64,000 nt of DNA from Alphaproteobacteria bacterium. GTDB lineage: Bacteria > Pseudomonadota > Alphaproteobacteria > UBA8366 > Aestuariispiraceae. Where the stretch lies: the NCBI GenBank assembly GCA_030065235.1, contig JASJDC010000008.1, positions 124,001-188,000 of the forward strand, written 5' to 3'. The position numbers and the translations under genes were made by a program. This document shows, in pieces, positions 1 through 61,495 of the stretch (its first letter is position 1; every line of letters begins with the position of its first letter). A model generated the notes under the pieces. The model saw only the letters and a program-made list of their open reading frames with translations, was not told the DNA's origin and did not search any database.

Positions 1-342
1 ACGGTCGAACGGAATGTCCGGCGAGGTGTTGCGCGCGATCACCGTCCGCGCGCTGTCCACGCCCAGGACCGTGCGCAGCTTCGGCGGCCCCTCCTCCGCC
101 GCGATGTCGAGCCCGTCCGCATCCGCACTCTCGCCGTCGGCTTCCGGCGCCGCCGCGCCGCGCCGCGCCGGGGAGATTTGCTTGGCCGGCATCGGCGGTT
201 CATGCACGCCCCAGCCGTCATCCGCCAAGACCCGCCGATGCCGCTCAAACCGCCCCGCCCGATTGCTCGCCGCCCCCCGCCCCTTCACAGCGGCGATATT
301 AAGCGGGTCGGCGTCCAGGCTAATGTTCGGCTCCTGTTCCAT
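1..342 (-). CDS. PA0069-family radical SAM protein, N-terminal part (runs off window)
   Basis: Partial gene on the minus strand; only the first 114 codons are inside the window. The reading frame is open from the ATG at 342 to the edge. It carries the family's typical N-terminal block AVKGRGAASNRAGRFERHRR, followed by a variable acidic linker and then RTVIARNTSPDIPFDR, which precedes the radical-SAM cysteine cluster in this family. The CxxxCxxC motif itself lies outside the window. An in-frame ATG at 360 is an alternative start; neither ATG has a clear Shine-Dalgarno. The family is related to spore-photolyase-like radical SAM enzymes and its substrate is unknown. A fragment of this gene is copied at 2623-2670. 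Confidence 0.8.
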   Translation of the reverse strand, partial: MEQEPNISLDADPLNIAAVKGRGAASNRAGRFERHRRVLADDGWGVHEPPMPAKQISPARRGAAAPEADGESADADGLDIAAEEGPPKLRTVLGVDSARTVIARNTSPDIPFDR

Positions 343-394
343 TTCAGAAAAATAGAACATAAAGAGAACATTTGCAAGCGCCAAACAGCTAGAA

Positions 395-513
395 CCACGC
401 CATCCTCCTGCCGATCGAAACCATCACCGAGGTGACGCCGGCGGCGTTGCCCGATATGGTTCAGCTTCCGGGGGAGTGAGGGAGCGGACATCAGGCCGTG
501 AAAGATGAAGCGA
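395..513 (+). repeat. Copy A of a ~120-bp duplicated segment (other copy 2667-2786)
   Basis: About 119 bases just upstream of the radical SAM gene match 2667-2786 at roughly 85-90% identity by eye, including the exact core GAGGTGACGCCGGCGGCGTT. In copy B the segment ends with the start codon of the gene at 2770 (ATGAATGACAAAGCGA). Here the matching place reads GTGAAAGATGAAGCGA, so a translation start region appears to have been duplicated along with its upstream DNA. Confidence 0.8.
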
Positions 514-629
514 AAGACGTGCAGCAATGCCTGTGTTTGATTCGCCGACCTGACGGCCGCAAACGTCCCATTCGGCTGCGACAGTTCACCCGTGTAAAGA
601 AATTGAAGCAGTATCAATGTAGGCCATGA
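498..629 (+). CDS. 43-residue ORF, possible remnant of a paralogue of the gene at 2770
   Basis: It starts with GTG at 498, inside duplicated copy A. Its first residues (VKDEAKDVQQ) align with the first residues of the protein at 2770 (MNDKATDASQ) and then the sequences diverge. It is rich in Arg and Lys and has no recognisable domain. The stop TGA (627-629) overlaps the ATG of the DUF2927 gene (626-628) in an ATGA arrangement, so translational coupling is possible. It could equally be a decayed 5' fragment left by the duplication. I would not call it a functional gene without expression evidence. Confidence 0.25.
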   Translation: MKDEAKDVQQCLCLIRRPDGRKRPIRLRQFTRVKKLKQYQCRP

Positions 630-1456
630 CAATAGGACAGTATTTCAAGAGCCGATGGTCGTGCGTTCATCATCCAAGGGCGGTACTTTTCGCATTGGTC
701 GGGCTGCTCGTATGCGGCTTTCACATCGATGTCTCCGCAAGTGAGCCGGCCGCTGACGACAGCTTCACCAAACAGGAATTGATAGAGCATTTCATTGGGA
801 CTGCTTTTGGGGCGGAGTATTTTGAATCGTTTTCCGACGATGCGGACGCAGGAACTCTTAAGCGTTGGGAGAAGCCGTTGCGCGTTCTCACAATAGCCTC
901 ACAAGAAGACGGTAAGGTTCTATTCGAAAAGCTTAATGAAATATCGAAACTAACTGGAGTTCAGTGGCGCCCTATCGGCCTAGAGTCTCCAGAGACTTTC
1001 AACTATTTAGTGGCAATTGCGGATCGCAACGAGTTGAGAGAGGTTCTTACAGGACTTGCCAAGAGACGCCAACATGTTCGGCAGTTCGTAGATCTTATCT
1101 TCAAAGGCTTCTACGAAAAAGCTCGCTTTATTTGTTTAGGTTGGGTGGAATTCAATCAGAAAACGGAACTATACTTTGCGTTTGTGTTGGTGGAAAGCCC
1201 GGCCCCGTCGGGACTGCCGGGCCCTGTGGTGAGCGTTGCTGATTGTTTGGAAGAAGAATTGGCTCAAAGCATGGGCTTGGCCAATGACTTCCCGAATAAG
1301 CCCGGAACGGTGTTTTCCGACGATCCTTTGCAGGTTCAAAGGCAATTGACAGAAATCGACAAGGCGGCCTTGCGGCTTCTGTATCATCCCAAACTTCAAG
1401 CGGGCATGACTGAGTCGGAGGTCCGACGCACGCTTGATAGGATATTGGAGGATTGA
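626..1456 (+). CDS. DUF2927 family exported protein
   Basis: 276 residues. An N-terminal hydrophobic segment at about 18-38 (FALVGLLVCGFHIDVSA) looks like a signal peptide or anchor. The remainder fits DUF2927: the opening RWEKPLRVL at about 80, the central CLEEELAQSMGLANDF around 207-222, and the C-terminal LLYHPKLQAGMTESE. DUF2927 proteins are predicted secreted proteins with a metallopeptidase-like fold, but the EELAQ stretch here is not an HExxH zinc motif and the function is unknown. Base composition is visibly more AT-rich than in the housekeeping neighbours, consistent with acquisition. The ATG at 626 overlaps the stop of a small upstream ORF, and the RBS is weak. Confidence 0.65.
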   Translation: MTIGQYFKSRWSCVHHPRAVLFALVGLLVCGFHIDVSASEPAADDSFTKQELIEHFIGTAFGAEYFESFSDDADAGTLKRWEKPLRVLTIASQEDGKVLFEKLNEISKLTGVQWRPIGLESPETFNYLVAIADRNELREVLTGLAKRRQHVRQFVDLIFKGFYEKARFICLGWVEFNQKTELYFAFVLVESPAPSGLPGPVVSVADCLEEELAQSMGLANDFPNKPGTVFSDDPLQVQRQLTEIDKAALRLLYHPKLQAGMTESEVRRTLDRILED

Positions 1457-1535
1457 GGTCGGCGATTGCGATCCACGCGGGGTCGGGAATGCTATAATCA
1501 GAGGTGTCAATCCTCATCGAATCGGTATCAGCGGT

Positions 1536-2081
1536 CTAGGACACCGGCTGGGGACCGTCGCTGGCCTCCAAAAGCCCCATGCTCTTCTTGAGCTGTTCAA
1601 CGATCTCTTCGGCGCCGCTTTCAAAAATCGAGCGCCATGCTCCAATCGTATAGGCCCCGCCAGCGTAGATAGTGTTCGTTGTCTCAATGGTGGCGACCGG
1701 CGCCTTATCGGGTGTTTGAATGTCACTGCTGACTTTCAGTATCGTAGAGCCCGCGCCGGGCAAGAGCCAACGGGCGAACGCGTTGCCGGGCTCATATTCA
1801 TTGATCGTTGGGTTGATGGCGTAGCCAGCGTCGTCGCCGGTCGCCAACAGCCCTTCTTCCGTCAACTGTTCTGTCAAAGCCGCTTCCATTGACACCGGGA
1901 TATCCAGCGATTCCTCGTCCTGCGAGAAAACAAAGCCGGAATTGTCCGTGACGTCGCCGACCACGAACTTGGCGTCGATGGGGATGGAATTGCGGTCTTT
2001 AGAGAAATCGATGCTGTGTCGGTCCGTGCCACAAGCCGCGACGCCGAGGACGACAAAAAGAAGGACTATTGCGTGTTTCAT
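1536..2081 (-). CDS. DUF4410-like lipoprotein
   Basis: 181 residues. The start MKHAIVLLFVVLGVAACG is a signal peptide ending in a lipobox (VAAC), so the mature protein should be a lipid-anchored periplasmic protein. The central segment NEYEPGNAFARWLLPGAGST followed by a Gly/Ala-rich stretch near 145-150 resembles DUF4410/DUF3313-type lipoproteins; the family call is tentative. The gene is convergent with the DUF2927 gene, leaving 79 bases between the stops. No partner gene for envelope assembly is nearby, and the function is unknown. Confidence 0.6.
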   Translation of the reverse strand: MKHAIVLLFVVLGVAACGTDRHSIDFSKDRNSIPIDAKFVVGDVTDNSGFVFSQDEESLDIPVSMEAALTEQLTEEGLLATGDDAGYAINPTINEYEPGNAFARWLLPGAGSTILKVSSDIQTPDKAPVATIETTNTIYAGGAYTIGAWRSIFESGAEEIVEQLKKSMGLLEASDGPQPVS

Positions 2082-2531
2082 GATCGACTCGCGTGTTTCG
2101 TTGGACCGTTTTAGTGATGCATGTTGCGTACGAACCCGTTGATATAGGCTAAAGATTAAGAATTAGTTTCGTCCAACCAAAGCGGTCCCGTGCAAAAGCT
2201 GCGGGTCCCTTCAGAGGTCGACGGCGCGCTGACATGCATGCGGCGCCGTCCGCATTGAAGGATATGATTCAAAGCTCCGCGATGGTCTCGGAATGGACAC
2301 CGAGCCATGCAGGATCAAACGATCGACGCGCTGCCCCGTTTAGGCTGCTCGCCGCCCGGTTTTTGCTGGGCCAATTGCTAAGAGCGTTTGACGCGGCATG
2401 ATAGACGTAGCGCCTGTAATCCAGAGGCATCTCGAATGTCGCATCCGAGAGGTCATCGTCAGGCAAAGCCCCCGCTTTGGTGATCCGCAAACGGCCCCCG
2501 GCTTGAAGCCTTAAGCCCATTGAACCGACCA
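2082..2531. other. Intergenic stretch without a convincing gene
   Basis: 450 bases between the lipoprotein start and the chimeric duplicated segment. One minus-strand frame is open from TTG 2532 (or ATG 2520) to 2269, giving at most 87 residues with no recognised family and no good RBS. It may be the tail of a decayed gene. The promoter of the lipoprotein at 2081 should lie here, but I see no consensus boxes. Confidence 0.4.
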
Positions 2532-2786
2532 ACGCGCCACCCCTACTCTCGTAGCCGCGGCATCAATTCAACGAAGCTGCAGGGGCGGAAGCGGCTGTCG
2601 AGTTGGGTTTTGAGGATGTCGTCCCAGCCGTCATCGGCCAAGACCCGTCGATGCCGCTCAAACCGCCACGCCATCCTCCTGGCGATCGAAACCACGACCG
2701 AGGTGACGCCGGCGGCGTTGCACGATATGGTTTGCCATTCTGGGGGAGTGAAGGGGCGGATATCAGGCCATGAATGACAAAGCGAC
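2532..2786. repeat. Chimeric duplicated segment: moaB 3' end + radical SAM gene fragment + copy B of upstream region
   Basis: Three pieces join here. Bases 2532-2632 match 4902-5003, the moaB 3' end including its stop codon. Bases 2623-2670 match 210-258, codons of the radical SAM gene that encode RFERHRRVLADDGW. Bases 2667-2786 match 395-513. The first junction falls in CCCAGCCGTC, which both parent genes share. The second skips bases 259-394 of the parent locus. On the minus strand this gives a 114-residue chimeric frame (2543-2887) ending in the MoaB C-terminus; it is not expected to be functional. Confidence 0.85.
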
Positions 2787-3885
2787 TGATGCGTCGCAAC
2801 GCCCGCGCCGGCTGTGGACGTGCCTCCTCGCAGCGGTCGCGGCGCTTCTGGCAGGCTGGCTGGTATGGAGCCAATGGCTGAACCCATCGGGCGTTCGGCA
2901 TGTATTCTTCGATCCGCAAGATGAGAGCTTCCCGGTCGAGGTGACCGGCTATTACGGCTATAACGGCGAACGGGTCGAGTTCCGCCATATCATCGAATGC
3001 CGCAAGGCGATCTATCGCGGCGCCAACCGCGCCGGGGCGGTGACCTGGACGCCGAATACGAAGTTATTCGTCCAGCACAACCCAGACGGGTCGACCCTGA
3101 TCTACGGTTTTCACGCTGGTAGACAAGACAAGTTTGCGGCTGCCGATTTCCACTGCAGCGATTTTCACGACGACCCGGATTTGGAGATCGAACGGTATCT
3201 GCAAATCGCCTGGATTGACGATATCAAGACGTTCGGCAGCGTCTATTACGCGCGCAGCCGGTGGAACCCGCCGACGGATTTTTCCGGCCTGATCACGCGC
3301 GGTCGAATTTCGGCCCGCCGCATCGCTACGGGCGCGCCGGACCCGGTCAACCCGATGGTGCATTGGGCCTATCCGATGATGAACCTGCGCGACACGGATG
3401 CGCTGGGTTTCGACCATGCGGAACACGCCAAACATGCGATTGTTCGAGAAGGGTTTTATTATGTTTGTGTACCTTGGGTGGCCTTCGAACAAAGATACCG
3501 CGAGTCCGGGCGTGCACTCCCGCGAATCAACCCGGCGCCACCGGGTTTTGTTGAGGACCTCTGCGGGATGCTCAAAGAGGCCGGCGCCAACTACCTGCCC
3601 CTGATTCCGATTGGCGACGATGCCTATCTGGTGACCGTCGACCCGATCGGCCCGAACCTTTGGCACTACCACACCAGCCCGGAGGTGGTGGGCGAAGTCG
3701 TCAACGGTCTGCAGCCGCTGATGCTGCAAACCGAACTCGGGACAGTACCGCTCCGGTCTTGGCCTAAGAACCTCGGCAAGGTGTTGGCTTGCACCGATGC
3801 GGAAGAGCCTAACTGTATGAGCGTCCTGCGAACTTTTCTAACCGTTTCTGCAAGCGCCGCCGCGCGTCTTGTAAAGGGGGAATGA
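2770..3885 (+). CDS. Unrecognised membrane-anchored extracytoplasmic protein
   Basis: 371 residues, not assigned to a family. A short basic N-terminus (RPRR) is followed by one hydrophobic segment at about 14-35 (LWTCLLAAVAALLAGWLVW). The rest is hydrophilic and aromatic-rich, with scattered cysteines that could form disulfides outside the cytoplasm, so a single-pass anchored periplasmic protein is likely. The start region lies in duplicated copy B. A second small ORF and a membrane protein follow closely, suggesting one transcript. Codon use is close to the surrounding chromosome. A role as an immunity or envelope-stress protein is only a guess. Confidence 0.6.
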   Translation: MNDKATDASQRPRRLWTCLLAAVAALLAGWLVWSQWLNPSGVRHVFFDPQDESFPVEVTGYYGYNGERVEFRHIIECRKAIYRGANRAGAVTWTPNTKLFVQHNPDGSTLIYGFHAGRQDKFAAADFHCSDFHDDPDLEIERYLQIAWIDDIKTFGSVYYARSRWNPPTDFSGLITRGRISARRIATGAPDPVNPMVHWAYPMMNLRDTDALGFDHAEHAKHAIVREGFYYVCVPWVAFEQRYRESGRALPRINPAPPGFVEDLCGMLKEAGANYLPLIPIGDDAYLVTVDPIGPNLWHYHTSPEVVGEVVNGLQPLMLQTELGTVPLRSWPKNLGKVLACTDAEEPNCMSVLRTFLTVSASAAARLVKGE

Positions 3886-3886
3886 C

Positions 3887-3982
3887 ATGACAACCAGCAT
3901 TCAAAAGCGTGATCTGTCGGATTACGCCTACGCGCATCGGGCGGACGCGGGTGTGACGCTTGGCGGTTGGAGCGGCCGGTGA
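3887..3982 (+). CDS. 31-residue ORF coupled to the downstream membrane protein
   Basis: It starts at ATG 3887, six bases after a strong Shine-Dalgarno (AAAGGGGG, 3873-3880), the best ribosome-binding site in this patch. The product begins MTTSIQKRDLSDYAYAHRAD and ends after GGWSGR. Its stop TGA (3980-3982) overlaps a GTG (3979) that is in frame with the next gene, giving a GTGA overlap. It may be a true short leader peptide, or the 5' remnant of a larger gene whose ribosome-binding site now drives the membrane protein. Confidence 0.35.
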   Translation: MTTSIQKRDLSDYAYAHRADAGVTLGGWSGR

Positions 3983-4785
3983 CACATGAGCCGGTACGGT
4001 GGACGGGGTGTGGAGCCTATATTTTGGGTTTGGTCACCGCGCCGGTTTTGCTGGCCGTCATACTCGAACTGCCAGGGTTCGTGCTGCCCTTTATTGTGTT
4101 CGGCGTGTATCTGGCGGTGAAGCATGCGTTTTACGCGAGTTGGCGGCTCACGGCGCTGGGCTCCGCTTTGATCTGGGGCCTGTTGTTCTGGGACTACCCG
4201 CTGCGGCAACTGCAATATCACTATATCTGTAACTACTTGGAGATCGACAATCCGATCACCAATACCGAGCCACTGGACCAGTTCTATTTCTCCAAACCGC
4301 GTGCCGGCTGCGACGCCCTATGCCAGCGCGCGTTGATCGAGTACGGCATTGGCGAGGTCATCCTGGAGTCGGACCTCCCTGGACCCGATGGGGCCTCGGA
4401 AGGATGGGTTCGCTATGCGCTGGCCGAACCGGGCGCGGTCTGCGAACCGGCCGCCCATGGCCGCTGTATCACCGCCACGCCGATGCCTGAGATAACAACT
4501 AGAGAAGAGGCTTTGAATCTCCTTGGGGATTGGGATGATCGGCAGTCCCACTCAGAGTTCCTCTACGATTTATGGTTTCCGTATCGAGTCACAACCACTG
4601 AATATAGTGAAAAATCAAGTGGTTTGGTTTTCATACGGAGTGTGAGTCTAGACATGTATACGGGCGATCGGGTCTCAGCGGCCTTGGACCGCGCGATAAG
4701 CGGCTATATGGGCGGTGGCAGAAAATGCAAAGAGTGGTCGATCTTCGACAAATACCCAGACTTTTACCAACGAAAAGCGGAATAG
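3979..4785 (+). CDS. Unrecognised multi-pass membrane protein with cysteine-rich C-terminal domain
   Basis: 268 residues from GTG 3979; an in-frame TTG at 3967 is an alternative. Three hydrophobic segments occupy about residues 10-80 (GLVTAPVLLAVILELPGFVL, then LPFIVFGVYLAV, then LGSALIWGLLFW). A soluble domain of about 180 residues follows with several cysteines (CDALCQ, VCEP, GRCI, KCKEW). No family was recognised. GTG 3979 overlaps the stop of the preceding short ORF, so translation may be coupled. The gene is the last of the accessory patch before moaB. Confidence 0.55.
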   Translation: MTHEPVRWTGCGAYILGLVTAPVLLAVILELPGFVLPFIVFGVYLAVKHAFYASWRLTALGSALIWGLLFWDYPLRQLQYHYICNYLEIDNPITNTEPLDQFYFSKPRAGCDALCQRALIEYGIGEVILESDLPGPDGASEGWVRYALAEPGAVCEPAAHGRCITATPMPEITTREEALNLLGDWDDRQSHSEFLYDLWFPYRVTTTEYSEKSSGLVFIRSVSLDMYTGDRVSAALDRAISGYMGGGRKCKEWSIFDKYPDFYQRKAE

Positions 4786-4911
4786 GTAGTCGCTACGACT
4801 AAAGTCGAAATAGAGCCGATCAATGATCCATGCTTTCAGGAGAATATCGACCTACTCCATGATGCACCTATCGGCTGACGCGCGCTTCGCCAATATGGGC
4901 TACGCGCCACT

Positions 4912-5436
4912 CTACTCCCGTAACCGCGGCATCAGTTCGACGAAGTTGCAGGGGCGGAACCGGCTGTCGAGTTGGGTTTTGAGGATGTCGTCCCAGCCGT
5001 CCTTGCAGGCGCCGGTGGAGCCCGGCAGGCCGAAGAGATAGGTTCCGTTGGCGACGCCGGCCAGGGCGCGGCTTTGCACGGTGGACGTGCCGATCTTCTG
5101 ATAGCTGAGCATGCGGAACAGTTCGCCGAAACCGGGGATGTCCTTCTCGCAGACCTGCTCGAAAGCTTCCGGCGTCACATCGCGGCCGGTGACGCCGGTG
5201 CCGCCGGTGGTGATGACGCAATCGACCATCGGATCGGCGACCCAGCGGTTGAGAGTCTTGACGATGGCCGGGACGTCATCCTTGACGATCGCACGGTCGG
5301 CCAGGATATGGCCGGCCTCGGTCAAGCGATCGACCAGCGTCTGGCCCGACCGGTCATCCGCCAGCGTGCGCGTGTCGGACACGGTCAGGACCGCGATCCG
5401 CACCGGCTTGAACGGCCTGCTCTCATCGATCGGCAT
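4912..5436 (-). CDS. moaB: Molybdenum cofactor biosynthesis protein B
   Basis: 174 residues from ATG 5436. MoaB/MogA-fold proteins bind molybdopterin and adenylylate it ahead of metal insertion. Visible signatures are [17 protein letters not shown] near the N-terminus, the molybdopterin-binding loop [17 protein letters not shown] at about 85-101, and [15 protein letters not shown] near the end. The frame continues upstream of 5436, but the family alignment begins at IAVLTVSD, so the short start is chosen. It lies 13 bases after the lytic transglycosylase stop, on the same strand and probably the same transcript. A copy of its 3' end lies at 2532-2632. Confidence 0.9.
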
Positions 5437-47800: not shown

Positions 47801-47816
47801 CGAGGGTTTGGTCTCC
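47801..47816 (+). repeat. 16-bp copy of the left edge of the 59.4-kb hairpin element
   Basis: CGAGGGTTTGGTCTCC is identical to 59439-59454, where it begins the first long hairpin. It is followed here by ATGACTTGGAGTG, which can pair weakly with GTCTCC. It may be a truncated copy of the same element. Confidence 0.55.
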
Positions 47817-58115: not shown

Positions 58116-58526
58116 GTGACCCCCCGTTTTCCTGAACCCTGTGCGTTTTGATCGTCAGCCCGGCGCTTCACCGACGCCCATAGTGCCGCTTTTGCGCCGC
58201 TCATTTCAACTGCGCGCCGGCGTCAGGGGACGGCGGATCAACGGTTGACCGAAATTGCGATTAGCAACCGACGCTTTGCAATTTGCAACGCAAAGAGCAA
58301 CTCTCGAGGCGCTCAAACCGCGTTCTCACAGCGAAAAACAGGGCGGCTGTGAAGATCATCGAGCATTAGAGAAGATAAATAAAAGAGAATTCATACAGTT
58401 ACCGAACTCTACGCCGCCATACTGCGATTAAATGCCGGCTGGCATGGAACTTGTTTTTGTACTGTCGAAGAAAACAGCAGTAGCATGACTGTGCGGGACG
58501 CCGCTTGATTGAATTGGGGGAAAGTC
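58116..58526. other. Divergent intergenic region with an inverted repeat
   Basis: 411 bases between the protease and OmpA-family genes. CTTTGC-N10-GCAAAG (58274-58295) encloses TTGCAATTTGCAA, two TTGCAA palindromes one base apart. The area from 58360 to 58400 is AT-rich (AGATAAATAAAAGAG) and probably holds the OmpA-family promoter. No gene seen. Confidence 0.4.
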
Positions 58527-59408
58527 ATGAAAAAACAACGATCGTCGATGTCGACGCTGGTTATTGCGGGCTTCTTGTTGACGGGTTGCGCTGTGAATAC
58601 GGCCCAATTGCCCGATATTGCTGAGACGGAGTCGTCGGGGACGGCTTTCGACACTTTCTTGCGGAATGAGTATATCGCCTTGTCCAATGTCGAAGCGGAC
58701 GAGTTCGATTGGCGAGACGCCGATACGTTCGCGGCGCGCGCCCTGGCGGCGCATGCGGGCAATTCGCCCGACCCTGAGGAGATTTCCGCCCGTTCGCTGC
58801 CGGAGGACCGCGTCAGATTGATGACGGGCGCACGCGCCCGATTAATGCGCGCTTTCGAAGCGGGCGGACGCGAGGCGAATCCGGCGCAGGCCGCCGGGGC
58901 TCAAGCGGCTTTCGAATGTTGGATGCAGGAGCTGGAGGAGAACCGCCAGCCCGAGGATATCGAAGCCTGTCAAAAGGATTTCATCTTTCACATGGAGGCC
59001 TTGGAAGCGGCCCTGGCGGGCGCGCCGCCGACGGAGCCCGCGCCGGCGGCGGCTCCGGCGCCGGACCCGGATCTGCCAGAGCCGGTGGTGATCTATTTTG
59101 GTTTCGACAGCGCGACCCTGTCGGATGCGGCCGCGGAGAAGGTGCTGGAAGCGGTAAAGGCCTTCGTCCAGGGCGGGGCCAAGACGGCCCGCATCGTCGG
59201 GCACACCGACACGTCCGGAGATCCCGCTTACAACCGCGCGCTTGCTGAACGTCGGGTGACAGCGGTTAGCGAGGAAATGTCGATCAACGGCATCGCCGTC
59301 GATTCGATCAAGACGCTGTCGATGGGCGAGACGCAGCCGGCGGTCGACGCGGGTGAAGACGCAAAAGAGTTTAGGAACAGACGCGTGGTGATCTTCTTCG
59401 AGAGATAA
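58527..59408 (+). CDS. OmpA-family lipoprotein
   Basis: 293 residues. The signal with lipobox is MKKQRSSMSTLVIAGFLLTG then Cys. The middle is helical. The C-terminal OmpA peptidoglycan-binding domain starts at about 190: VIYFGFDSATLSDAAAEKVL, then RIVGHTDTSGDPAYNRALAE and EFRNRRVVIFFE. It should link the outer membrane to the cell wall. GGGGGAAAG is the RBS. Confidence 0.92.
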   Translation: MKKQRSSMSTLVIAGFLLTGCAVNTAQLPDIAETESSGTAFDTFLRNEYIALSNVEADEFDWRDADTFAARALAAHAGNSPDPEEISARSLPEDRVRLMTGARARLMRAFEAGGREANPAQAAGAQAAFECWMQELEENRQPEDIEACQKDFIFHMEALEAALAGAPPTEPAPAAAPAPDPDLPEPVVIYFGFDSATLSDAAAEKVLEAVKAFVQGGAKTARIVGHTDTSGDPAYNRALAERRVTAVSEEMSINGIAVDSIKTLSMGETQPAVDAGEDAKEFRNRRVVIFFER

Positions 59409-59440
59409 CCGCACGGCGAAGCTTCGGACGGCGACGTCCG

Positions 59441-59506
59441 AGGGTTTGGTCTCCGTGGTTCAACGCCTCCCGTACCCCCCAGTTGAGCCACGGGGACCGT
59501 AGCCCT
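59441..59506. repeat. Long hairpin 1 with conserved 17-nt loop
   Basis: GGTCTCCGTGGTTCAAC (59448-59464) pairs with GTTGAGCCACGGGGACC (59482-59498): 17 bp including two G-U pairs. The loop is GCCTCCCGTACCCCCCA (59465-59481). Outer AGGG/CCCT can extend the stem across a small internal loop. It has no T run, so it is not a classical terminator. Confidence 0.9.
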
Positions 59507-59657
59507 CCGTTTCGTAAGACGCGCTCGGCCAGCTTGGTCGGGACTTGCACTGGCGGCGTGCGCCGCCCGATTGAGACGACCCCCCTCCAACCGTGGACAG
59601 GGTCGGGCGGGGACAATCGGAACGAGGTTCGGCGGTCCGTTTTGGTCGCCGTACACT

Positions 59658-59712
59658 GGGCTCCCGCGGTTTCTTCGCCTCCCGTACCCCCCAGAAGAAG
59701 CCGTGGGAGTTC
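59658..59712. repeat. Long hairpin 2 with the same 17-nt loop
   Basis: CTCCCGCGGTTTCTTC (59661-59676) pairs with GAAGAAGCCGTGGGAG (59694-59709): 16 bp including two G-U pairs, extendable by three. The loop GCCTCCCGTACCCCCCA (59677-59693) is identical to hairpin 1 although the stems differ. About 160 bases separate the two; no gene lies between them. Confidence 0.9.
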
Positions 59713-59851
59713 TTTCAATTTGCGCCGGCGGCGGACGCATGAGCACAGGGCCAAAGACGCGGAAATCGCCGAACAACGCCATTGCGGACTGTCGGACAGG
59801 CCGATAGCTTTCTCCTCATACAAACGGGAAAAGCCAAAACGGGGAAAAGCA

Positions 59852-60070
59852 ATGCTGCGTCTCATCCTTGCCCTCTTGCTGCCATGGCTGGTGTTCTTCA
59901 CCATCGGAAAACCGATCCAAGGGATCATTTGTTTGCTGCTACAACTGACGCTGATCGGCTGGATTCCCGCTGCGATTTGGGCGGTCTATGCGCTTAGCCA
60001 GTACAATACCGACAAGAAGATCGCCGAAGCGGGGCTTGGCGGCGGTCTGGGCGGCGGCGGCTCGGAATGA
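59852..60070 (+). CDS. YqaE/Pmp3-family small membrane protein with Gly-rich tail
   Basis: 72 residues. Two helices, LRLILALLLPWLVFFTIGKP and LQLTLIGWIPAAIWAVYALS, match the Pmp3/YqaE pattern. Family members help membrane-potential homeostasis under salt or cold. A tail ending in GLGGGLGGGGSE makes it about 20 residues longer than classical members. GGGGAAAAGCA is the RBS. The two long hairpins lie upstream. Confidence 0.85.
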   Translation: MLRLILALLLPWLVFFTIGKPIQGIICLLLQLTLIGWIPAAIWAVYALSQYNTDKKIAEAGLGGGLGGGGSE

Positions 60071-60092
60071 GAGGCGTTTTCAGACCGGTCGC

Positions 60093-60533
60093 TCAACGGC
60101 GCTCCTGGAAAAAGGCGCGCAGCAAGACACGGCTTTCGCTTTCTCGGACGCCGCCGATGATCTCTGGTCGATGATGGCAGGTCGGTCGGTCGAACACCCG
60201 CGCGCCATGCTCAACGCCGCCGCCTTTCGGGTCATAGGCGCCGAAGATCAGGCGCCTTAGCCGAGCGTGGGCGATGGCCCCGGCGCACATGGCGCAGGGT
60301 TCCAGCGTGACAAACAAGTCGCAACCCGTCAGCCGCGACGAACCCAAGGCCGCACCAGCCGCCCGCATCGCCAGGATTTCAGCGTGTGCCGTGGGGTCCG
60401 AGAGTTCCTCGACCCGGTTGCGCGCCTCGGCGACGACCTCCCCCGACGCGTCAGCGACGACCGCCCCGATCGGCGCCTCGCCGGCGTCGGCGGCCTGGCG
60501 CGCCAAGTCCAAGGCGCGGCTCATCGGTTCCAT
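60093..60533 (-). CDS. tadA: tRNA-specific adenosine deaminase
   Basis: 146 residues. Converts A34 to inosine in tRNA-Arg(ACG). Zinc ligands and the proton shuttle are visible in PTAHAEILAMR (HAE) and LEPCAMCAGAIAHARLRRLI (PCxxC). Length is normal. Convergent with the YqaE gene, divergent from the pseudouridine synthase gene. Confidence 0.95.
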   Translation of the reverse strand: MEPMSRALDLARQAADAGEAPIGAVVADASGEVVAEARNRVEELSDPTAHAEILAMRAAGAALGSSRLTGCDLFVTLEPCAMCAGAIAHARLRRLIFGAYDPKGGGVEHGARVFDRPTCHHRPEIIGGVRESESRVLLRAFFQERR

Positions 60534-60634
60534 AGATTCATCGCTCCATTGCAGTCTGCGCCACAGGGCTTATTCTCGCGCCGCGCTCGTGCTGTAGCGC
60601 AGCCCGACTGATAGCGAAACCGGGAACCGTCCGA

Positions 60635-61495
60635 ATGTCCGACCCTGCCGACCAGACAGCCGGTTCTACACCCACCGAGGCAGGCGAGACGCAGCGAATC
60701 GCCAAACGCATGGCGCGGGCCGGCCTGTGCTCGCGGCGCGAGGCGGAGAAATGGATCGCCGAGGGCCGGGTCTCGGTCAATGGCGTCATCATCGAGACGC
60801 CGGCGACCCTGGTCGGCGACAACGACGCCGTGACCGTGGACGGCAAGCCGCTCCCGGCGCCGGACCGGCCGCGATTGTGGCGCTTCAACAAACCCGCCGG
60901 TCTGTTGACGACGCGCAGCGATCCGCAAGGAAGGCCGACCGTGTTCGACGCCTTGCCTGGCGACCTGCCGCGTTTGGTCAGCGTCGGACGGCTCGACATC
61001 AACTCGGAAGGTCTGCTGCTTTTCACCAATGACGGCGGTCTTGCACGCAAGCTCGAACATCCCAGCACCGGCCTGCGCCGCCGTTACCGCGTACGCGTAC
61101 GGGGGCGCGTCGAGCCGGACAAGCTGGCCGCCTTAGCGGAAGGTGTCACGGTCGAGGGCGTGCAGTATGGCGCGGTCGAAGCCCGTTTGGAGAATCAACA
61201 AAGCAGCAACGCCTGGGTGATCGTCACTTTACGCGAGGGCAAGAACCGGGAGGTGCGTCGGATCATGGAGCATCTCGGCTATCCGGTGAACCGGCTCTCG
61301 CGCACGGCCTACGGACCGATCACGCTGCTCAATCTCAGACGCGGCGAGATCGAGGAAGTGCCGCCGGGGATTGTCCGAAGACTGTTGGGCGAGAGCCATA
61401 AGGGCGCCAAAGCCAAGGCGAAGAAGGTGAAACCGAACCGGCGCAAGAGCCGGCGTGCGGGCGCGGGCGGCGGCGCGCCACGACAGGGGCGGTAG
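60635..61495 (+). CDS. rluB: 23S rRNA pseudouridine synthase, RluB/RsuA family
   Basis: 286 residues. The N-terminal S4 RNA-binding domain is RIAKRMARAGLCSRREAEKW. The catalytic Asp lies in VGRLDINSEGLLLFTND at about 116-132. The basic tail (KAKAKKVKPNRRKSRR) is typical of RluB. Two bases separate its TAG from the rsmD ATG, and the two work on ribosomal RNA. Confidence 0.93.
   Translation: MSDPADQTAGSTPTEAGETQRIAKRMARAGLCSRREAEKWIAEGRVSVNGVIIETPATLVGDNDAVTVDGKPLPAPDRPRLWRFNKPAGLLTTRSDPQGRPTVFDALPGDLPRLVSVGRLDINSEGLLLFTNDGGLARKLEHPSTGLRRRYRVRVRGRVEPDKLAALAEGVTVEGVQYGAVEARLENQQSSNAWVIVTLREGKNREVRRIMEHLGYPVNRLSRTAYGPITLLNLRRGEIEEVPPGIVRRLLGESHKGAKAKAKKVKPNRRKSRRAGAGGGAPRQGR

Follow-up and report, generated by a model that had tools for sequence, protein, structure and literature searches.

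A conserved multi-hairpin RNA array with one frozen C-rich loop behind an OmpA-family gene in Hwanghaeella and a related genus, a candidate base-pairing small RNA

The window, that is, the whole stretch of 64,000 nucleotides of alphaproteobacterial DNA that was analysed, carries on its plus strand two long hairpins in which the same loop, GCCUCCCGUACCCCCCA, is presented. The features of the locus are collected in Table 1. A first-pass annotation had reported twin hairpins with identical 17-nt loops and stems of 16 to 17 bp, situated between an OmpA-family gene and a Pmp3-type gene. The loops were confirmed as identical in their reported places and both stems were long, although the uninterrupted lengths were slightly greater than reported; Pfam analysis upheld the placement between the two genes, which was also kept in two other genomes.

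Table 1. Positions of the hairpins, flanking genes and associated motifs (window coordinates unless a locus label is given)
Feature	Position	Strand	Remarks
TTTGCAATTTGCAA-like words	~58277-58295; L009 ~1140-1180; L010 ~780-820		
Sigma54-like promoter motif	58439-58455	+	CTGGCATGGAACTTGTT; common to the three hairpin genomes
OmpA-family gene	58527-59408	+	PF00691; lipobox-like start by eye
Short hairpin	59422-59443	+	Directly 5' of hairpin 1; counterparts by eye at both Hwanghaeella loci
Hairpin 1	59447-59499	+	18-bp uninterrupted stem, 17-nt loop; with one bulge reaches 59442-59505
Loop 1	59465-59481	+	GCCTCCCGTACCCCCCA
Hairpin 2	59658-59712	+	19-bp uninterrupted stem, 17-nt loop; followed by U-rich TTTCAATTT (by eye)
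Loop 2	59677-59693	+	Identical to loop 1
Terminator-like hairpin	59789-59807	+	Followed by CTTTCTCC; possible transcript end, weak
pmp3	59852-60070	+	PF01679; downstream flank of the array in three genomes
Flagellin-upstream sigma54-like sites	L114 1501-1517; L115 1501-1517		One mismatch to CTGGCAYRRAACTTGTT

The two other genomes were those of Hwanghaeella grinnelliae Gri0909 (G003, array locus L009) and of a Hwanghaeella MAG (G008, array locus L010); the genome of the window (G000) belongs to the same family but to another genus. An array of hairpins lay between an OmpA-family gene and pmp3 in all three genomes with the loop, the OmpA identification being by Pfam in the window and by eye in L009 and L010. 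The number of hairpins was two in the window, two in H. grinnelliae (L009 2357-2508) and four in the MAG (L010 1960-2423). The stems began from about 11 nt (L010) to 38 nt past the ompA stop codon, behind the small hairpin, which in L010 overlapped the stop codon itself. In G001 and G004, two relatives from other genera, a gene read by eye as OmpA-like was followed by a short terminator-like hairpin, a 92-amino-acid protein and pmp3, and no array was present between the OmpA-like gene and pmp3. The 92-amino-acid protein that occupies the place of the array in relatives contained PF20061 (DUF6460; L019 1194-1472 and L024 1195-1473).

Folding analysis of the plus strand gave z-scores of -5.55 for hairpin 1 and -6.15 for hairpin 2, with none of 200 shuffles of either being equally stable, and -4.60 for the region 59409-59730, for which none of 100 shuffles was as stable. 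The corresponding minus-strand z-scores of the hairpins were -0.78 and -0.25. Comparison of the two window hairpins detected agreement at 20 of 36 stem positions.

In order to compare loops with stems, the eight hairpins of the three genomes were aligned with MAFFT and the structure was written by hand. The loops agreed at every shared position in all eight hairpins and conformed to the general form GCCTCCCGTA-C5to7-A. The length of the C run alone differed, with one C more in the second loop of L009 and one C less in the fourth loop of L010, so that six of the eight loops were exact copies. Mean stem identity was 61% over the 28 hairpin pairs, and 145 of 150 stem cells were nevertheless occupied by standard pairs; the five mispaired cells comprised two U·C, one C·U, one A·G and one A·A. 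Changes on both sides were observed at 13 of 19 stem pairs. The covariation score was 0.686, compared to 0.283 in shuffles and at most 0.192 when the partners were slid, and none of 500 shuffles reached any of the five stem measures; given a hand-written structure and related sequences, the sliding control carries most weight. The proposal of the first-pass annotation that the loop is frozen while the stems drift and still pair was thus strongly borne out at the orthologous loci, as was the stem covariation by which it was to be checked. Identity among the three genomes was 65% to 72% for ompA and 74% to 76% for pmp3 at the DNA level, and 70% to 71% for the intergenic stretch in a gap-permissive alignment that included the loops. 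This divergence indicated that complete identity of the loops is not just a product of recent ancestry.

G·U pairs occupied 24 cells of the alignment, and A·C none. As each G·U pair of the plus strand corresponds to an A·C mismatch in the minus strand, this asymmetry points to plus-strand RNA, rather than extruded DNA, as the selected molecule. The earlier suggestion of a presented single-stranded loop, in either RNA or extruded DNA, was therefore sustained for RNA and not for DNA. All eight loops were open in the predicted folds of the three intergenic RNAs. A coding repeat was rejected because the frame of the loop differed between copies (by eye) and because the one-base changes in the C run, in two of the eight copies, would be frameshifts. 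Sequence comparison established the frozen loop, the compensating stems, the selection of plus-strand RNA, the conserved locus and the varying copy number, and it is almost certain that the array is a genuine structured RNA, conserved and under selection in its loop.

The distribution of the loop was narrow. In the genome of the window (4.18 Mb), exact copies of the loop were detected twice, at a single locus, and one further loop-like site with two mismatches was assigned by eye to coding sequence. With up to one mismatch, the loop was present in 3 of 59 genomes, including that of the window, at a single locus in each. The search of relatives that had been proposed at first pass thus yielded orthologous paired hairpins in two other genomes: further copies existed and their stems were paired. 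Among 84,980 species genomes of the GTDB collection, an exact 19-mer consisting of the loop and its closing pair was found in four stretches, namely, the two Hwanghaeella loci and two stretches of other bacteria (L012 and L014) that were read as coding. The latter matches were antisense (L012 5785-5803 and L014 7041-7059), the flanks of both resembled each other, and the gene containing them is presumably carB; chance, by way of a Gly-rich motif conserved in the protein, probably explains them. The IMG/VR viral contigs contained no exact copy of the 19-mer.

A covariance model of the hairpin detected the three array genomes and one marginal match (G013, E = 0.086) among 43 genomes of the order, and the window's own genome and three weak matches (G400, E = 9.9e-4; G164, E = 0.029; G223, E = 0.037) among 385 genomes of the class. 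The E-values are rough, and about 0.4 matches with a value like that of G400 are expected across 385 genomes. Both searches are insensitive to distant relatives, as candidates were scored to a maximum of 130 per genome for the order and 14 for the class, and divergent relatives may be missed. The G400 match (L060 1501-1551), from a distant alphaproteobacterium, is a hairpin that has a long stem and a C-rich loop with UACCCCCCAG at its end, and it lies directly before an ATG.

A dispersed family had been proposed at first pass from a 16-bp copy of the left edge of the array at 47801. The letters of this copy were present, but as the mark of a family it looked like background. It was among 16 maximal direct repeats of at least 16 bases in the window, seven of which were exactly 16 long, and the window contained 70 repeated 16-mers (a count inflated by several long repeats) compared to 1 to 12 in ten order-3 Markov surrogates. 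No third copy of the 16-bp repeat was found in the genome with up to one mismatch, and no hairpin of the array kind was seen by eye at 47801. With a single locus in each of three genomes among the 59 searched, the dispersed family was not upheld. Nor was a nearby transposase or partner gene recognised, either by Pfam analysis of four window proteins or by eye in the open reading frame lists of L009 and L010. Elsewhere in the window (236-2720 and 2592-5000), direct repeats with lengths of 19, 25 and 41 bases were spaced about 2.3 to 2.4 kb apart and probably represent paralogous genes.

The transcript that carries the array was considered from its flanks. None of the three intergenic stretches yielded a sigma70-like promoter. 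A terminator scan, which covers only loops of 3 to 8 nt, found two sites in the window compared to 0.9 in shuffles, a good terminator 3' of the array in L009 (2540-2559) and none between the array and pmp3 in L010. Given the U-rich stretch behind it, hairpin 2 might itself be the transcript end. The simplest reading of these sequences would place the array RNA in the 3' untranslated region (UTR) of ompA, and the OmpA-family gene is its probable host transcript.

The most evident block that all three genomes had in common upstream of ompA was CTGGCAYRRAACTTGTT, with its GG located 86, 115 and 92 nt before the start codon; the ompA-like genes of G001 and G004 showed no such block in about 250 bases of preceding sequence. 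We take CTGGCAYRRAACTTGTT to resemble a sigma54 -24/-12 element with a T for the last C of TTGC. Allowing up to two mismatches, 14 sites were present in the three genomes, including the three ompA sites, compared to 19 for the reversed control. Only two further one-mismatch sites were detected, one in G000 and one in G008, at distances of 109 and 126 nt from the flagellin genes that follow them; G003 had none. The sharing of this sigma54-like motif with flagellin genes suggests that the array may be coexpressed with the flagellum, as a lead rather than proof. Farther upstream of ompA, TTTGCAATTTGCAA-like words (CAAATTGCAA and GCAAAATGCAAAT) were observed by eye in all three genomes and are possibly an operator.

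The architecture of the array was compared with those of known systems. The closest likeness was to the cuckoo RNAs, CcsR1-4 of Rhodobacter sphaeroides (RF02791, CcsR1), which are also alphaproteobacterial and consist of consecutive hairpins with one C-rich, anti-Shine-Dalgarno-like loop on diverged but paired stems; CCUCCC is common to the loops of both systems, and the array, by its position, would likewise lie in a 3' UTR. According to two reports, CcsR1-4 are cut from the ccaF1 3' UTR with the help of RNase E (PMC8625941, PMC10253847), and an RpoHI/RpoHII promoter was reported for ccaF1-CcsR (PMC10253847), whereas a sigma54-like motif was seen upstream of the ompA gene of the array. The two systems also differ in that CCUCCUCCC is the motif of CcsR, while all eight array loops read GCCUCCCGUA-C5to7-A, and in that CcsR has a DUF1127 neighbour (CIN1 locus), while the array is flanked by OmpA and Pmp3. 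No DUF1127 match was found at the array; there were 16 matches in the three genomes, 15 of them over the cut-off, and CCTCCTCCC was present at none of these 16 loci. The Rfam CcsR1 model gave no match in the window region 58400-60700 at E-values up to 10 and none in L009 at E-values up to 1. In L010, it matched the third hairpin (2210-2284) at 18.9 bits (E = 0.68), below the gathering score of 65.3 bits. Rfam as a whole, at E-values up to 10, gave two weak matches for 58400-60700, on the other strand and outside the array. By analogy, the array most likely acts like a cuckoo RNA although it is without the cuckoo motif, neighbour and Rfam score. It could be a distant cuckoo descendant or a convergent design, and the weak L010 score fits either.

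Similar comparisons were made with alpha-r14/NfeR1 (SmelA075 and SmelA099) of the Rhizobiales. According to one paper, these have three hairpins with an identical, ultraconserved CCUCCUCCC anti-Shine-Dalgarno motif, highly different stems and redundant silencing (PMC10746234); according to another, alpha-r14 has three and four hairpins with such loops and a kinship to Rhodobacter RNAs (PMC3927594). One loop motif on different stems in multiple hairpins is common to them and the array, but loop sequence and length differ, CCUCCUCCC is absent from all eight array loops, and the alpha-r14 RNAs are described as trans-encoded, in several copies per genome. The array had no such Rfam match. The siblings SisA-D (alpha-R8) of the alphaproteobacterium Caulobacter, which are sponged by CrfA, have a common 10-mer with an anti-Shine-Dalgarno signature (PMC12559287). 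In this they resemble the array, but they are encoded as four individual RNAs and do not form an array. Neither the loop core CCTCCCGTACCCCCC nor its RNA form was found in the literature searched.

Our preferred reading, at a probability of roughly 0.55, is that a base-pairing small RNA derives from the ompA 3' region. A structured plus-strand RNA would follow the ompA-like gene, with each long stem holding the same loop open. This RNA would belong to the ompA 3' UTR, from which one or more small RNAs would be liberated, probably through RNase E as in the case of CcsR. Their redundant C-rich loops, with GGGAGG and GGGGGG as complements, would then bind G-rich ribosome-binding sites and so repress several mRNAs. 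Expression, the 3'-UTR origin, processing and base-pairing in trans are what we infer for the array from its sequence. The loop contains both CCUCCC and CCCCCC and is able to pair with Shine-Dalgarno sites; loops might also kiss one another through the palindrome GUAC. The pattern CGGGAGGC was found 2 to 9 nt before an ATG at 73 sites in the three genomes, compared to 23 for the reversed pattern, an enrichment of Shine-Dalgarno-like sequence that is expected anyway. Inspection of 30 of the 73 loci detected at least 100 open codons from the ATG in 16, some of them inside longer frames, and no conserved target emerged among these 30, as no two frames were related (blastp, 1e-3). Pairing with flagellin 5' regions was rejected, amounting to at most 7 and 5 consecutive pairs with G·U allowed.

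The loop was kept over 16 to 18 nt, beyond the 6 to 9 nt needed for an anti-Shine-Dalgarno seed. This counts against the preferred reading, as do the lack of an extended complement, the missing terminator before pmp3 in L010 and the occurrence in three genomes only. We tentatively entertain a variant in which a previously undescribed RNA family of Hwanghaeella and a related genus reached the multi-hairpin, one-loop design independently, the loop of 16 to 18 nt would be recognised as a whole by one dedicated partner, either protein or dominant RNA, and the array would be switched on with the flagellum by a sigma54-type promoter shared with flagellin. The main rival, of lower probability than the preferred reading, is the explanation that the loop is a protein-binding site and that its several copies titrate an RNA-binding protein, as repeated sites do in CsrA-binding and Hfq/Crc-binding decoy RNAs. 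The retention of the entire loop together with its C-G closing pair, the copy number of 2 to 4 and the lack of an extended complement are consistent with such a site. For the extended complement, 25 sites with up to three mismatches were found in the three genomes, of which 8 were the loops themselves, compared to 44 for the reversed control, and the closest complementary or equal sites besides the loops had two mismatches. The array also shares with CsrB/RsmZ-type decoys the repeated hairpins that present one loop motif. The loops of those decoys contain GGA, which is the CsrA site, but GGA was present in none of the eight array loops. The C run was off by one in two of the eight loops, and no RNA-binding gene was recognised beside the array (by eye in the L009 and L010 flanks), both of which also argue against a protein-binding site.

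We consider it unlikely that the array acts in cis, by ending or protecting the ompA transcript (as a 3'-end stabiliser or Rho-related site) or by controlling pmp3. A plain terminator-like hairpin takes the place of the array behind the ompA-like gene in G001 and G004, the array is C-rich and close to pmp3, and window hairpin 2 is followed by a U-rich stretch (by eye), all of which would suit a cis role. A stabiliser or rut site, however, needs no letter-for-letter conservation of 16 to 18 nt, no U run was seen by eye after the last L010 hairpin, and the pmp3 starts of the three genomes had no shared loop complement (by eye). There is also little probability that the array RNA sponges another small RNA whose seed is G-rich, in the way that CrfA acts on SisA-D in Caulobacter. 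Repeated identical loops would suit a sponge, and one report provides an alphaproteobacterial precedent for the sponging of a small RNA family (PMC12559287); against this, loop complements with up to three mismatches were not above control in the three genomes, and SisA has an anti-Shine-Dalgarno motif and hence the same polarity as the loop rather than that of its complement.

Pairing of the loop with 16S rRNA is very improbable. The first ten bases of the loop, GCCUCCCGUA, complement UACGGGAGGC (E. coli rrsB 343-352) without a mismatch, but an E. coli rRNA match of at least 10 nt was obtained for 348 of 5,000 loop shuffles (7%) and for 255 of 9,141 window 17-mers, so that the match is within chance; the site is itself paired within 16S. 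No 16S rRNA gene was found in G000, G003 or G008 by model (control positive in 9 of 14 genomes) or by pattern. A DNA element, either an extruded or single-stranded hairpin or a mobile REP, attC or IS200/605 end, to which the long inverted repeats and varying copy number might have pointed, is scarcely credible in view of the G·U/A·C asymmetry, the one locus per genome where mobile hairpins have dispersed copies, the absence of the 19-mer from viral contigs and the lack of a recognised transposase in the surrounding open reading frame list.

Judged by its sequence, the array appears to combine a known architecture with a loop for which no precedent was found in the literature searched, and it has no Rfam family match at threshold. 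The known alphaproteobacterial multi-hairpin, frozen-loop RNAs have CCUCCUCCC as their motif. Should the array be a further instance of that architecture, with a different loop and an envelope-protein gene in place of DUF1127 as neighbour, then either the design has evolved repeatedly or its seed is exchangeable; in both cases, comparison of the array with the CCUCCUCCC RNAs would separate the needs of the architecture from those of specificity. The copy number of two to four in relatives makes dose and redundancy testable. The alpha-r14 authors described covariance models as inadequate where the stems of an RNA have diverged and its loop is fixed (PMC3927594), so that other families of this type may have escaped notice.
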